22,495 nucleotides of DNA from a virus: positions 1-22,495 of IMG/VR virus record IMGVR_UViG_3300037069_001481; one strand, 5' to 3'. This document shows, piece by piece, positions 248-22,432 of the stretch (the stretch's first letter is position 1; each line of letters starts with the position of its first letter). Both the position numbers and the translations under genes were made by a program. The notes under the pieces were generated by a model, which was not told where the DNA came from, did no database searches, and saw only the letters and a program-made list of their open reading frames with translations.

Positions 248-308
248 AAATGCAACGTTAATACGTTTATACGAAATTACCAAATAAATGTTTTATATTT
301 GTGGAGAA

Positions 309-581
309 ATGCTTACCTACAAACGTAAACTAATATTAAACAAAGCGCAGCAGTCACGTATTGACAGTTGGTTAGGCTGCGCTCGTACAGTTTACAACCT
401 ATGTTTAGAAATTAGGAAAGAGGGATGGAAAAACAAACAAGAAACTATTCATAAATATGAATTAATTAAACAACTCCCACCACTTAGAAAGGAATACGAT
501 TGGATTGCAGATGTTCCGGCTGTCGCATTAGAGGATGTTGTTTTTCGATTAGACAAAAGTTATCAAAGTTTTTTTAATGGG
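309..581 (+). pseudogene. tnpB: 5' fragment of IS605-family tnpB
   Basis: The first 90 or so residues match the N-terminal helix-turn-helix part of TnpB/OrfB proteins of the IS200/IS605 group. The sequence opens LTYKRKLILNKAQQSRIDSW, then has CARTVYNLCLEIRKEGW, then a leucine-rich part ending KSYQSFFNG. TnpB is normally about 370-450 residues; the RuvC acidic residues and the zinc ribbon are absent. After about base 581 the frame continues for 33 codons without TnpB character and stops at 680. The start at 309 (residue 8 of the longest frame, which opens at 288) fits the usual TnpB N-terminus. A TATATTTG box lies at 294-301, 7 bases upstream. The 3' end, where the omega guide RNA would lie, is lost, so the fragment should be inactive as a nuclease. 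Confidence 0.7.
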
Positions 582-940
582 AACGGGTTTTGTAAATTAT
601 CTGAAAGTTCAAAGGCAACTTTCTCCCCATGTGCAGGCTTCATTAGGTCGGCAATATCAATACCTTTTGCTGAAAAATAGATATTTACTGCACTGAGTAC
701 AGCAACTACACTTTCAACTGATAACCACATTTTGTTTTGCGTATTTCTGCCAGAACTTTCAGGATTTTCTACCGATATGATCAATCCTCCGGACCTACTT
801 TCGGGCATTGTTTCATCTTCTGCTATTTCCATAACCGAAATTAACCTGTGATCTTTTGCTGTCACCCTTACAAAAGATAGGATGTCCAAATCTTTTTTTA
901 AGCCACCTTCACCGACTGTGGCTGTGCCGTAATTTTTCAT
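563..940 (-). CDS. phage protein of unknown function, 3' end rebuilt from IS DNA
   Basis: I do not recognise this 125-residue protein. Its N-terminus is glycine-rich (ATVGEGG, 7-13), its middle is acidic and polar, and it has a hydrophobic helix at about 72-90 (LSVESVVAVLSAVNIYF). The last five or so residues (PLKKL) and the stop codon at 563-565 lie inside the tnpB fragment, read on the opposite strand. The C-terminus was therefore probably altered when the tnpB remnant was joined here, and the two reading frames overlap tail to tail. The gene is part of the leftward operon, 47 bases from the next gene upstream. Start: ATG at 940. Confidence 0.55.
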   Translation of the reverse strand: MKNYGTATVGEGGLKKDLDILSFVRVTAKDHRLISVMEIAEDETMPESRSGGLIISVENPESSGRNTQNKMWLSVESVVAVLSAVNIYFSAKGIDIADLMKPAHGEKVAFELSDNLQNPFPLKKL

Positions 941-6681: not shown

Positions 6682-6689
6682 TTTTTTTT

Positions 6690-8771
6690 ATGGATAAGCA
6701 CGATTTTTCAGCACTTAATGATATACCTGGATTAAGATTTATTCCTTGTAAAGACACAAAACAACCTATACCAAAAAATTGGCAGACTCAAACTACTCCC
6801 CATGACCTTACTCAGTGCGTATATGTAGGTTTAGTTTGCGGAGAACCTTCGGGTGGTATTGAAGTTATTGATGTGGACGAAAAATATTCTTTAGATGGTA
6901 AACTGTTTGAAAACTACAAAAAGGCAATTCATCAAACAGATCCGATGCTTTTAAAGAAATTGGTCGTACAAAAAACAAAAAACGGTGGGTTCCATTTTAT
7001 TTACCGATGTGCCGTTATAGGCGGCAATTCCAAACTTGCAAATCGCCCTACTACCGATAGAGAAAAGAAAGAGACTTACGACAAGGCTTTTCAGGCAGAA
7101 CTTGTAAATCCTAAAAATGATAAAGGAGAGGAACAAGCTAAGAAGGTTGCTGAAAAGGCATACAAAAACGACAAAGTAAGAGTGCTATTAGAGACAAGGG
7201 GTACAGGTGGGCAAATCATAATTCACCCTTCACCGGGATATGAAATAATTCACGGTGATATTTACGGTATAAACCAAATAACGCTTGAAGAAAGAGAAAT
7301 ACTATTTTCAGTCGCAAGGTCATTTAACAAGGTTTTTGTAGAGAAGGAACAACCTAAACAAATAGGTGTTAAAAGAGAGGGTCTTTCAACTTTTGATGAT
7401 TACAATGAGCGTGGAGATGTTGTAGGGTTGCTTGAATCTAACGGGTGGAAATTTGTGGGCACAAAATCAGATAAGACAATATTTCTTCGCCCCGGTCAAA
7501 CTACATCACAAACAAGCGGCAACTACGACCATGCTAAAAAATGGTTTTCTGTATTTACCACAAGTACGGAGTTTGAACCTGAGACTGCTTACTTACCCTA
7601 TGCCGTTTATGCCATGCTTGAATGTAATGGTAACTTTTCCGAAGCAAGTAAAAAATTGTATGATTTAGGATATGGAGACAGGTATGAAGAAAAGAAAAAA
7701 AACACATACGAAAGTACAAGGGTAATAAAATCAAGAGTTGACCCTTTGGATGATGACTATTCATTTTTGGCTACAGGAGATGATTATAATGGTTATTTAG
7801 GTCAGGTTATTGACGGCACATTGCCTATGGGTTTAACTACGGGTAGCCCTGAGATGGATAAACACTTTCTTTTTAAAGAAGCAGAATTAATGATGTTCAA
7901 CGGACATGATAACGTAGGTAAGTCTGTCTTTGTTTGGTGGCTTTTAATGCTTTCTGCAATGTATCATGGATGGGTAGGAATAATTTTCTCTTCAGAAAAT
8001 ACATTGGGTGCATTTATGAGAAAAATGATACAGTTTTATTGGGGTAAACCTTTGCGTGGATTTGGCGCACAGACACCACAAGAATTTGAAACCGCAAAGG
8101 CGTTTGTAGAAAAGCACTTCATACTTATTAAAGCACAAGAGGACTTGTATAATTACAAGGATATTATGAACATGGTAAAAAAGGCAAGGATTAAATACCC
8201 GAACTTAAAATACGGCATGATTGACCCGTATAATAGTTTAAAAATGGATTTAAGCGGTTTTAGTAAATTGTCATCTCACGATTACCATTACGAAGCTATA
8301 AGCGAAATAAAATCTTACGGACAGACTACAAAGTTCGGATGGTTTATAAATCATCATTGCGTTACCGAAGCATTAAGAAAATTAGATAGTGACGGTTATC
8401 CTATTGCACCAAATAAAGCAGATACTGAAGGTGGTGGAAAGATGGCTAATAAGGGAGATGGGTTTGGTACTGTTCACAGAAAAGTTCAGCACCCTACAGA
8501 TTGGATGGTTACGGAGTTTCATATAAGAAAAGTTAAAGATACAGAGACAGGCGGTAAGCATACAGTAATAAACGACCCACTAAGGTTTGAAATGATAAAA
8601 AATGGATGTGGCTTTAGAGAACGTTTAGATGGTGGCAACCCGATAGATCCGATACGAGAATGGCATAAATCACAAGGTAGAAATTTAGACGAGCAATTAG
8701 TCCCCGGTGTAATTTGGAAACCATACCAAGATGACAAAGATGATGACCTAAAAGACTTTATCCCATTTTAA
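6690..8771 (+). CDS. primase-helicase fusion (Prim-Pol plus DnaB-like RecA domain)
   Basis: A 693-residue replication enzyme. The N-terminal domain (about 10-215) looks like a bifunctional primase-polymerase of the archaeo-eukaryotic type: acidic motif IDVD (60-63; D61, D63) after GLVCGEPSGGIEV, then the histidine motif GGFHFIY (99-105; H102), then RGTGGQIIIHPSPGY (170-184). A linker domain (about 232-330) precedes a RecA/DnaB-type ATPase. Its Walker A is GHDNVGKS (405-412, Lys411), Walker B is YGMID (508-512, Asp512), and FINHHCV-like residues follow near 550. It should unwind DNA and lay primers at the phage fork. A 2-base gap to the next gene suggests coupling. Which activities are retained cannot be judged by eye. 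Confidence 0.85.
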   Translation: MDKHDFSALNDIPGLRFIPCKDTKQPIPKNWQTQTTPHDLTQCVYVGLVCGEPSGGIEVIDVDEKYSLDGKLFENYKKAIHQTDPMLLKKLVVQKTKNGGFHFIYRCAVIGGNSKLANRPTTDREKKETYDKAFQAELVNPKNDKGEEQAKKVAEKAYKNDKVRVLLETRGTGGQIIIHPSPGYEIIHGDIYGINQITLEEREILFSVARSFNKVFVEKEQPKQIGVKREGLSTFDDYNERGDVVGLLESNGWKFVGTKSDKTIFLRPGQTTSQTSGNYDHAKKWFSVFTTSTEFEPETAYLPYAVYAMLECNGNFSEASKKLYDLGYGDRYEEKKKNTYESTRVIKSRVDPLDDDYSFLATGDDYNGYLGQVIDGTLPMGLTTGSPEMDKHFLFKEAELMMFNGHDNVGKSVFVWWLLMLSAMYHGWVGIIFSSENTLGAFMRKMIQFYWGKPLRGFGAQTPQEFETAKAFVEKHFILIKAQEDLYNYKDIMNMVKKARIKYPNLKYGMIDPYNSLKMDLSGFSKLSSHDYHYEAISEIKSYGQTTKFGWFINHHCVTEALRKLDSDGYPIAPNKADTEGGGKMANKGDGFGTVHRKVQHPTDWMVTEFHIRKVKDTETGGKHTVINDPLRFEMIKNGCGFRERLDGGNPIDPIREWHKSQGRNLDEQLVPGVIWKPYQDDKDDDLKDFIPF

Positions 8772-19791: not shown

Positions 19792-20151
19792 ATGGAATTT
19801 AAGACAGTAAAATTTACCCAAGAGTTATCAATAAACGGTCTATCATGTTGGCCTTCTTTAGAAATGGATATGCAACCGGACGAAGATCCACAGGAAGCGT
19901 TCACAAAGATAATAGCGGAAATCCAAAAGCTAAACACAACTCTACTAAAAACACCCGCCGTAGAGCCTGAGCCTATTATACAGGTAGAGAAGAAAAACCC
20001 ATCACAACTTGAAAAACTAATTGAGGCAATAAGAGGGTCATCAGACCTAAAGGTACTTGACTCATTCAAGATTCTTATAAAGGGGAAGCCAGAAGCAGAA
20101 GCGGCATATTCAGAAACAGAAAAAAAACTAATAAACGATGCAACAAGATAA
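19792..20151 (+). CDS. hypothetical protein before the nuclease genes
   Basis: A 119-residue protein of unknown function. An N-terminal beta part (FKTVKFTQELSINGLSC, 3-19) is followed by a helix DPQEAFTKIIAEIQKLNTTLL (about 32-52), a proline/glutamate-rich linker and a C-terminal helical part. Proteins with this position and shape often precede the exonuclease in phage recombination modules, which may point to a partner role; that is context only. Its 3' end overlaps the nuclease start by 14 bases. Start ATG in ACCAATG. Confidence 0.5.
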   Translation: MEFKTVKFTQELSINGLSCWPSLEMDMQPDEDPQEAFTKIIAEIQKLNTTLLKTPAVEPEPIIQVEKKNPSQLEKLIEAIRGSSDLKVLDSFKILIKGKPEAEAAYSETEKKLINDATR

Positions 20152-20905
20152 CATCAACTTCGACAATATAAAGTTCAGGGCATCTTCATGGGGCAATTTA
20201 CTCAGCGAACCACAAGCAAAAGCAGATAAAGAAGCCGGTAAACTTGGACTAAGCTGCCAAAAGGAACTGCTGAAAATATACCGCAAAGAGATATGGCAAT
20301 GGGATGAAGATGATGTGTACACAGTACCAATGGAGAAGGGTACATTAGTCCAAACAGACAGCATATTCATGTACAGCAAGGTACAGGGACAGTTATTTAC
20401 AGAAAACAGCGAACATTTAGAGAACGAATGGTTCAAAGGAACACCCGATGTTTTCTTAGGAGAAACAATCCGCACCGCTACACAGGTAGATGACATGAAG
20501 AATAGTTGCCTTTTAAGCAATTACACTGACAAGATGGTAGAAACTGTCACTCCTGCCCAGAAATGCCAATTAAACTGCTACTACGACCTCACAGGAGCAT
20601 CAGGAGGCAACATTGTACACGCATTAATGTCCTTACCACAAGAAATGTTTGAAAAAGAGTGCGAAAAAGTACTTTGGAGAATGACAAACAACGGAGAGGC
20701 AGCTACAGAATACTCTCCGGCATATCTGGAAGAAGTAGAACGCCTGAAAAAGAAATGGATATACGATCATATCCCTGAAGAAGAGAGAATTTTCATCCAA
20801 CCTGTACCCAAAGACGAAGAATTAATCGAAAAAATGAAGCAAAAAGTACCAAGATTAAGAGAATGGTTGTATGAATTTCATAAAAAACGCTTAAATTTAC
20901 AATGA
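20138..20905 (+). CDS. YqaJ-like PD-(D/E)XK nuclease, first of two
   Basis: A 255-residue exonuclease-type protein. The core reads FRASSWGNLLS (13-23), KGTL (67-70), FKGTPDV (99-105, D104), DDMK (118-121; the D119-x-K121 pair), then QLNCYYDLTG (144-153), which fits the Q and YM.LT part of YqaJ/lambda-exo-like nucleases. Such enzymes degrade one strand for recombination, usually with a single-strand annealing protein. The Glu that follows KGTL in the second copy (KGTLCE) is not evident here (KGTLVQ), so activity is uncertain. C-terminal PEEERIFIQPVPKDEEL (214-230) matches the next gene's PEENRIIRFPVIRNEEQ. It overlaps the gene before it by 14 bases. Confidence 0.7.
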   Translation: MQQDNINFDNIKFRASSWGNLLSEPQAKADKEAGKLGLSCQKELLKIYRKEIWQWDEDDVYTVPMEKGTLVQTDSIFMYSKVQGQLFTENSEHLENEWFKGTPDVFLGETIRTATQVDDMKNSCLLSNYTDKMVETVTPAQKCQLNCYYDLTGASGGNIVHALMSLPQEMFEKECEKVLWRMTNNGEAATEYSPAYLEEVERLKKKWIYDHIPEEERIFIQPVPKDEELIEKMKQKVPRLREWLYEFHKKRLNLQ

Positions 20906-20953
20906 AAATACTACTGAAGTAGAAAGCAGATAGTTAATATCAATAAAAGAACT

Positions 20954-21055
20954 TCCTTAGAGGGAGGTTTCGGTCTGAACGCCGTAAAATACCCATCAAA
21001 GTGTGGTTGTTAGCCGTTCACTTTCTACCCGAAGCCAATCTCTAAGGATTTTTTT
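20954..21055 (+). promoter_or_regulatory. structured leader that sequesters a Shine-Dalgarno
   Basis: TCCTTAGAG (20954-20962) pairs exactly with CTCTAAGGA (21040-21048), whose AAGGA (21044-21048) is a good Shine-Dalgarno seven bases before the ATG at 21056. Inside it GGTTTCGG (20966-20973) pairs with CCGAAGCC (21029-21036) with one G-U, and TGAACG (20976-20981) with CGTTCA (21015-21020). AAAGTG (20998-21003) could instead pair with CACTTT (21019-21024), competing with the last helix. Seven U (21049-21055) follow the outer helix, so it might also terminate. No known riboswitch class is recognised. Confidence 0.55.
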
Positions 21056-21922
21056 ATGTCAGTAAATTTTAAAAAAGTAAGATTTGGTTGTTATGCTCTT
21101 GGAAAAATTGTTGGACTTGACCAGGGCGAAAAAATCCCTGCTAGAGAACTCCGAATATTAGAAAAACTAGAAAGTCAAGAAACTCCTCTAACTGATATTG
21201 AGCAGGAGTACATGATAGACTTAAAAAGGCAGAGGGGGTTAGCAGAAAAAACATTATCCAAGACTTGCATTAATTACCTAAGAGAAGAATTATTTATTTA
21301 TCACACATACGGTCAGCGAATACGTCCCGGCGGGGAATCCATGTCAGAGTCTAATTCAAGGATAATGAAAGGGACACTTTGCGAAAGTTTTGCCGTTGAG
21401 TTGCTTTCAAGGCATGATGGTATAAATTATAAAAAGAATGAAAAAAAGTATAGGAATAAATGGGTAGTTGGGATACCAGATATTAATCACAAAAAAAGGC
21501 TTGGAGATAGAACGGTAATTGACATAAAATCAAGTTGGGATATGTATACCTTTATGAACAATTTACCAAAGAAGTTAGCCCCGACACATAACCATCAAGT
21601 TCAAGGATATATCTCATTAACAAAAGCTGATGTTGGCGAAGTTTGCCATGTACTAGTAAGCGCACCAGAAGAACTTATTGAAAAACAAGTTGCTAAACTT
21701 AGGTATAAAAATGTTTTTGCAACAAGAGAAGAATTAGAAATTGCAGAGGAAATGACAAGGCGAAGCATGAGATTTGATGATATTCCTGAAGAAAACAGAA
21801 TAATCAGATTCCCAGTAATTAGGAATGAAGAACAGCAACAAGAACTGTTTGAAAGGGTAGATTTATGCAGAGAGTGGTTAGTGGAGTACCAGAAAACACA
21901 TAATGAATATTTTAAAAAGTAG
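21056..21922 (+). CDS. YqaJ-like PD-(D/E)XK nuclease, second of two
   Basis: A 288-residue homologue of the preceding nuclease with a fuller catalytic set: KGTLCE (105-110, E110), VVGIPDI (137-143, D142), VIDIKSSWDMYTF (154-166; D156, K158), and NHQVQGYISLTKA (179-191; Q181). The N-terminal extension (about 1-95, helical, charged) has no clear counterpart in the first copy. It should act in phage recombination as a nuclease trimming DNA ends. It is separated from the first copy by a 150-base structured leader and uses a clear AAGGA Shine-Dalgarno, unlike other genes here. It looks more A/T-rich at third positions than the first copy, which may mean a different origin. Confidence 0.75.
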   Translation: MSVNFKKVRFGCYALGKIVGLDQGEKIPARELRILEKLESQETPLTDIEQEYMIDLKRQRGLAEKTLSKTCINYLREELFIYHTYGQRIRPGGESMSESNSRIMKGTLCESFAVELLSRHDGINYKKNEKKYRNKWVVGIPDINHKKRLGDRTVIDIKSSWDMYTFMNNLPKKLAPTHNHQVQGYISLTKADVGEVCHVLVSAPEELIEKQVAKLRYKNVFATREELEIAEEMTRRSMRFDDIPEENRIIRFPVIRNEEQQQELFERVDLCREWLVEYQKTHNEYFKK

Positions 21923-21952: not shown

Positions 21953-22432
21953 TTGAAAAATAAAATTTACAGGTTCAACATTACACCCCAAACCCATGTC
22001 AGAGCGACACAGGGCGACCGCATCTTTTTCCGTATTCCAAGAGAAAAATTATTGCCATCAGGGCTTCGCAGATTAATGCGGTTGGAAAGATACAATCAAT
22101 ATAAGGAGGATGTAAGGGCAATCGCCAAGCAGATTAAATTTGACTTCCCGATGGAGGGAGCGCAGATTCGATTCTATTTGCCATGCCCTAAATCTTGGAG
22201 CAAGAAAAAAAGGATACGTTACCACGGTACTTTACACGCCTCTCGGCCTGATCTTGACAACTGTTTGAAATCCCTGATTGACAGTTTATTCACCGAAGAT
22301 AAAACGGTAGGTCACTTAGAGGTTTCTAAGCATTGGGTAGACAGCCCATCAGGATGGATAGACATTTCAATTAAAGAAGCCATATTCCCTGTAATACCCC
22401 ATCCTTCTAAGGAGCAGTTTGTGCTTCAATAA
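21953..22432 (+). CDS. rusA: RusA-family Holliday junction resolvase
   Basis: A 159-residue endonuclease. The RusA hallmark is RPDLDNCLKSLIDSL (98-112; D100, D102, D110), followed by TEDKTVGHLEVSKHW and a beta strand GWIDISI (134-140). RusA enzymes cut four-way junctions as dimers, resolving recombination and replication intermediates, which fits its place after two recombination nucleases. There is no ATG; the only start after the in-frame stop at 21923 is TTG at 21953. The upstream gap of 30 bases has no promoter box, so it is probably co-transcribed with the nuclease. Confidence 0.85.
   Translation: MKNKIYRFNITPQTHVRATQGDRIFFRIPREKLLPSGLRRLMRLERYNQYKEDVRAIAKQIKFDFPMEGAQIRFYLPCPKSWSKKKRIRYHGTLHASRPDLDNCLKSLIDSLFTEDKTVGHLEVSKHWVDSPSGWIDISIKEAIFPVIPHPSKEQFVLQ

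Follow-up and report, generated by a model that had tools for sequence, protein, structure and literature searches.

The window analysed here, that is the whole stretch of DNA under study, is IMG/VR record IMGVR_UViG_3300037069_001481 (22,495 nt, positions 1 to 22,495). We infer a Bacteroidetes host, because the nearest annotated relatives are phages of Flavobacterium, Riemerella and Leeuwenhoekiella and the gene starts are SD-less and A-rich. The region of interest lies on the plus strand and carries a nuclease gene, yqaJ1 (20138..20905), a second lambda-exonuclease/YqaJ-like nuclease gene, yqaJ2 (21056..21922), which we propose to be controlled by the leader preceding it, and, downstream, a gene for a RusA-like resolvase (21953..22432; Pfam RusA, 9.3e-14). 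YqaJ2 matches the exonuclease family PHROG 5715 (4.9e-26), and a profile of four YqaJ2 homologs recovers the phage exonuclease of PDB entry 3k93 (3.1e-22); PHROG 5715 and 3k93 are also matched by YqaJ1. The two adjacent paralogs, whose profiles thus both reach 3k93, are strongly diverged (25% identical), and the same pair is present in three other phage contigs (L002, L010 and L014), which share with the window the order of yqaJ2 followed by rusA. Elsewhere in the window we noticed the N-terminus of an IS605 OrfB/TnpB-like protein (288-680, plus strand; Pfam HTH_OrfB_IS605, 4e-10), truncated and apparently a remnant, and an HNH/NUMOD homing-endonuclease-like gene in the early region of the phage (16525-17787, plus strand).

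The leader of yqaJ2 was originally predicted to fold into three nested helices of 9, 8 and 6 bp, and all three are present, each exactly where it had been placed. The outer helix P1 (9 bp, 20954-20962/21040-21048) joins the 5' strand UCCUUAGAG to the 3' strand CUCUAAGGA, which contains AAGGA; P2 (8 bp, 20966-20973/21029-21036) pairs GGUUUCGG with CCGAAGCC; and after the junction J2/3 (20974..20975) P3 (6 bp, 20976-20981/21015-21020) pairs UGAACG with CGUUCA. The run of seven U that had also been predicted is found directly after P1 (21049..21055). Folding of the 126-nt leader gave -40.9 kcal/mol compared with -23.4 +/- 3.5 kcal/mol for dinucleotide shuffles (z -4.95, 0/200), so that the leader folds more than expected by chance, and the rods alone reached z values from -3.6 to -5.2 in all four members of the family described below. 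A pairing of an upstream A-tract with the U run, which appears in the minimum-energy fold of the window, is not shared with L002 and L014 and was discarded.

The family comprises four members in four phage contigs. Besides the window, L002 was found by a DNA pattern over P1 and P2 in IMG/VR (the same contig recurs as L012), and L010 and L014 by a search with the upstream nuclease YqaJ1. In all homologs the RNA adjoins the ATG of the second YqaJ-like nuclease, which is followed by RusA. In L010 the RNA still adjoins yqaJ2 even though an additional ORF lies between it and YqaJ1, and in L019 and L020, where YqaJ1 is present and YqaJ2 absent, no RNA was found; therefore, the RNA belongs to yqaJ2 and is independent of YqaJ1. 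Identity among the RNAs is 70-85%, compared with 27-53% for the adjoining YqaJ2 proteins. The family is rare in the IMG/VR collection, since a loose DNA pattern for the 3' end (ACCCNAAN{1,3}CAN{7,10}GGATTTTTT) returned 99 IMG/VR stretches, among which the covariance model matched only the known members. The pattern matches L003-L007 proved to be unrelated sequence. Other routes were searched as well: BLASTN with the leader as query gave only chance-level pieces in phages and plasmids, protein searches starting from YqaJ2, either alone or as the L014/L002 pair, recovered no relatives or distant ones only, which have no leader of this type, and scans of genome contigs with YqaJ1 and YqaJ2 gave nothing. 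The nuclease relatives in Riemerella and Flavobacterium phages follow recT without a leader gap, and no convincing RNA match was seen there.

Comparison of the four members showed that the element is longer than first reported, its covarying part starting at 20910 and its length being roughly 150 nt. The original prediction had P1 to P3 right and missed a first hairpin (H0), a kissing helix, a promoter and a hairpin that would compete with P1 (PA). H0 (20910..20934) has a 7-bp stem, ACUA-CUG/CAG-A-UAGU, with one bulged A and a 10-nt loop, AAGUAGAAAG; in the three homologs the stem is 8 bp long, with three pairs changed on both sides. Within this loop, kissing strand A (GUAGAAAG, 20919..20926) is perfectly complementary to kissing strand B (CUUUCUAC, 21021..21028), which runs straight on from the 3' strand of P3 into that of P2 with no linker on either side. 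The resulting helix of 8 bp is paired in 32 of 32 cells of the alignment, and six of its eight pairs are changed on both sides. As the covariance model behind this alignment (A8) was built without the kissing helix, these six covarying pairs are not a product of the fitting. The pair GUAGAAAG/CUUUCUAC of the window is replaced in the other members by GUAGUAAG/CUUACUAC, GUAGAAGU/ACUUCUAC (L010, extendable to 9 bp) and GUGACGUU/AACGUCAC, and such loop complementarity arises in only 0 to 1.2% of the shuffles made from each leader. The spacers are exact as well: the H0 loop leaves 2 nt on the 5' side and 0 nt on the 3' side of the kissing strand, and the other partner has 2 nt (J2/3, exactly 2 nt in 4/4 members of A8; UC, or CC in L014) and 0 nt. 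Judging by pseudoknot geometry, two nucleotides suffice to span the deep groove of a helix like this one, which would allow P2, the kissing helix and P3 to stack in one line.

Taking all helices jointly (H0, P1, P2, P3 and the kissing helix), 98.1% of the cells of 39 pairs are paired, and every shift of the register brings this figure down to at most 46%. Changes on both sides affect 18 of these 39 pairs, against 7.5 +/- 1.9 in shuffles (0/500), much of this covariation being supplied by L014 in a family of four members in total. As the original prediction would have it, homologous leaders carry compensatory changes in P1 and P2, and P3 does likewise, with four of its six pairs changed on both sides. 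We regard the conserved RNA fold as real with near certainty.

A fifth leader, in contig L011, provides the same plan in unrelated sequence. The YqaJ1 of L011 is 96.8% identical to that of L002, while its YqaJ2 and leader are different; this leader is unlike the other four in sequence, has the same geometry and precedes the same kind of nuclease gene. Its upstream hairpin has the stem CUGAAUUAUUU/AAGUAAUUCAG and a loop of CU plus AUGGUAGGA, and its second hairpin is a plain intrinsic-terminator hairpin, CCGCAAC/GUUGCGG, with a loop of CC plus UCCUACCAU followed by U6, the ATG lying 12 nt after the terminator stem. The U tract is thus U7 in the window and U6 in the other three members and in L011. 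A blind scan for a stem, T6 and ATG with a kissing upstream hairpin, over 2.17 Mb of collected DNA with both strands counted, returned five matches, four of which were yqaJ2 leaders, while the fifth, in L032, lay antisense inside an ORF and was attributed to chance. The bulge in its H0 stem kept the leader of the window out of these matches. The comparison of L002 with L011 suggests that the leader is exchanged together with yqaJ2, as a single cassette. We also observed that in L011 (6121-8739) the YqaJ2 ORF is truncated, with a DUF6731 gene and an IS1595-type transposase on the opposite strand coming after it, which points to an insertion in the nuclease gene.

Could the conserved block be a DNA element, such as a recombination or exchange site, an origin or a packaging signal, and not an RNA? 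It does border a cassette that phages exchange, as L002 and L011 have YqaJ1 in common (96.8% identity) but neither the leader nor YqaJ2. However, compensatory changes in four nested or hairpin helices and in a pseudoknotted one, with loops and spacers in register, are those of a folded single strand, and L011 keeps the plan without the sequence, so we consider a DNA element very improbable.

We also looked at the sequences upstream of H0. The Bacteroidetes promoter consensus has -33 and -7 elements TTTG/TAnnTTTG (PMC6847099, PMC7366714), and in all five leaders a match to it ends 2-10 nt before H0 or the corresponding first hairpin. In the window, the -7-like box TAAATTTA (20892..20899) lies 10 nt before H0 with no good -33 TTTG; it is weak when taken alone (shuffle p 0.12), as is the poor match of L014. 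The match of L011 is perfect (TTTG-N19-TATTTTTG), and that of L002 reads TTTG-N20-TAATTTAG. Summed over the five leaders, the promoter score is 41, compared with 28.0 +/- 2.4 in shuffles (0/3000), which gives statistical support to a putative Bacteroidetes-type promoter just 5' of H0. From this position, H0 would be the 5' end of the transcript.

Promoter-like boxes, a compact fold and a U tract are also the parts of a small RNA gene, and the element might be a stand-alone RNA of 140-160 nt acting in trans, with yqaJ2 expressed by read-through. We find this improbable, as in 4/4 members the U tract of the element leads directly into the ATG of yqaJ2, and contigs lacking yqaJ2 also lack the element; moreover, the same plan in the unrelated sequence of L011 fits a role in cis better than one in trans. 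The element is very probably a cis-acting leader of yqaJ2. The original idea of a new structured, probably cis-acting RNA is supported by the compensatory changes in homologs and the absence of a match in Rfam, detailed below.

The way in which this leader was first thought to act has fared less well. According to the original prediction, P1 hides an SD sequence, and a competing helix AAAGTG/CACTTT works as in switches. Indeed, P1 does pair AAGGA, which stands at a suitable distance of 7 nt from the ATG, and an SD-like motif is missing from all 39 other likely genes, both as predicted. The 3' strand of P1 is CUCUAAGGA in the window and in L010, UUCUAAGGA in L002 and CUCCGUGGA in L014; hence, AAGGA is found in three members and is replaced in L014 by GUGGA, with the P1 pairing kept by compensation. 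In addition, SDs are not recognised by the ribosomes of Bacteroidia (PMC9976891). The alternative helix is present in the window and is not conserved, the AAAGTG strand being absent from the leaders of L002, L010 and L014, and the CACTTT strand is part of the 3' strand of P3 and of the kissing helix. With the SD lost in L014 where the pairing is retained, AAGGA is best read as simply the 3' strand of P1, and a switch that hides an SD is hardly credible.

In Flavobacterium, A at -3 and -6 favours initiation (PMC6847099). Upstream of the yqaJ2 start codon stands U6-7, so that positions -3 and -6 lack A, while among the other genes of the window A stands at -3 in 25/39 and T6 precedes the start in 1/39. 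A U tract in place of the favoured A's is expected if the tract serves something else. Among the likely genes, the only other T6 followed by ATG is at 6682-6690, where T8 directly precedes the ATG of the primase-helicase gene.

Across the five leaders the plan is constant: a promoter, then a first hairpin, then a stem that this hairpin kisses in its loop or internal loop, with U6-7 directly behind it, and an ATG. The helices, the kissing pair, the U tract and their position are evident from sequence and covariation, and the simplest reading of this constancy is a cis-acting transcription attenuator. We give about an even chance to a kissing-loop attenuator of this kind, acting in cis and mainly through termination. 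Transcription of the leader would start at a promoter of its own, immediately 5' of H0; this hairpin would fold first and then the rod P1-P2-P3, the H0 loop kissing the strand between the 3' strands of P3 and P2, so that P1 and U6-7 would form an intrinsic-terminator-like 3' end abutting the ATG. If the kissing complex and P1 formed in time, RNA polymerase would stop at the U tract; if P1 were pre-empted, for example by the hairpin PA, or the complex disturbed, transcription would continue into yqaJ2 and rusA. Here we infer the termination itself, the direction of the switch and the role of PA. Termination control, which the original prediction had named as an option, is still a live one, while the SD and the AAAGTG/CACTTT helix of that reading fall.

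PA (ACUUCCU/GGGAGGU, 20951..20968) would use the 5' strand of P1 and may be an antiterminator or a folding intermediate. This CC-N5-GGG hairpin can form in all the prefixes; when folding the unfinished transcript it comes out as favoured in the window, L014 and L010 and is weak in L012 (the L002 contig); RNAalifold on the prefix gave -2.8 compared with -0.3 +/- 0.65 for shuffled columns (5/300). PA is a candidate antiterminator. The P1 stem closes around 75-90 nt, which is unusual for a terminator, and a simple terminator scan with a loop limit of 8 found no terminator in the leader.

The 3' strand of P1 is also within the ribosome landing zone and could equally act on translation. In such a translation-level leader, the folded P1 and the kissing complex (-40 to -7) would block the 30S subunit or, in an IRES-like manner, position it at the AUG, U6-7 being only a single-stranded spacer and no SD being involved. 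Consistent with this, only 6-7 nt lie between the end of P1 and the AUG in 4/4 members, and structure near the start codon lowers initiation in Flavobacterium (PMC6847099). However, in L011 the distance from stem to AUG is 12 nt and not 6-7, yet U6 is kept directly after the stem, and a spacer need not be all U; furthermore, SD pairing is unused in Bacteroidia (PMC9976891) and AAGGA is lost in L014. We consider control at the level of translation possible, although rather unlikely. As for what an attenuator would respond to, few unpaired positions are invariant among the four members of A8; this tips the balance slightly away from a small-molecule pocket and towards a protein or a competing RNA.

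The timing of gene expression in phages of SD-less hosts is little known, and here a fold is pinned down by covariation, kissing helix included, and is directly testable. If attenuation is confirmed, a recombination nuclease would be gated in an unusual manner, by kissing with the terminator hairpin, and loops that vary like labels suggest a means by which phages might sense or exclude each other. On both partners the kissing geometry is a 2-nt spacer, 8-9 bp and no 3' spacer. We tentatively propose, as an idea still rather doubtful, that such leaders form a class in phages, with the terminator hairpin itself being kissed by a hairpin upstream of it and with kissing sequences that vary like address labels from one phage to another. 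Were this true, competition for the kissing loops could set termination without a small-molecule ligand, possible competitors being the RNA of a co-infecting phage or a protein reading the kissing helix. All members, as well as the L011 look-alike, come from uncultured phages.

The original prediction recognised no known class, and in agreement with this the comparison with Rfam 15 gave 0 gathering hits in the whole window; only chance matches were obtained for the region at E <= 10, and in the loci around the four members nothing was found at the RNA. The element constitutes a new RNA family, although its general kind is known. In the plasmid attenuators of the pT181/pIP501 type, the kissing partner is a separate antisense RNA. 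Our leader resembles them in that loop-loop kissing would decide terminator formation just before the first gene, and differs in having both partners in the same leader, though a second RNA could compete. The kissing complexes of HIV-1 DIS and ColE1 RNAI/RNAII, which are intermolecular, likewise have loops that leave about 2 bases on the 5' side of the kissing bases and at most one on the 3' side; here the complex is intramolecular and of 8-9 bp, and P3 is inserted as a hairpin in the second loop. The AAGGA of P1, which in the window phage stands 7 nt from the ATG, is reminiscent of SD-sequestering riboswitches and RNA thermometers, but this sequence is not conserved and SDs are unused by Bacteroidia ribosomes. 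Finally, in the fluoride (crcB) riboswitch a pseudoknotted domain at the 5' end of the mRNA is coupled directly to an intrinsic terminator (PMC11077080). This riboswitch and other pseudoknotted transcriptional riboswitches share this layout with the leader of yqaJ2 and its putative terminator, whereas our leader, with no Rfam match and no evident small-molecule pocket, has its kissing partner inside the terminator-like rod itself.
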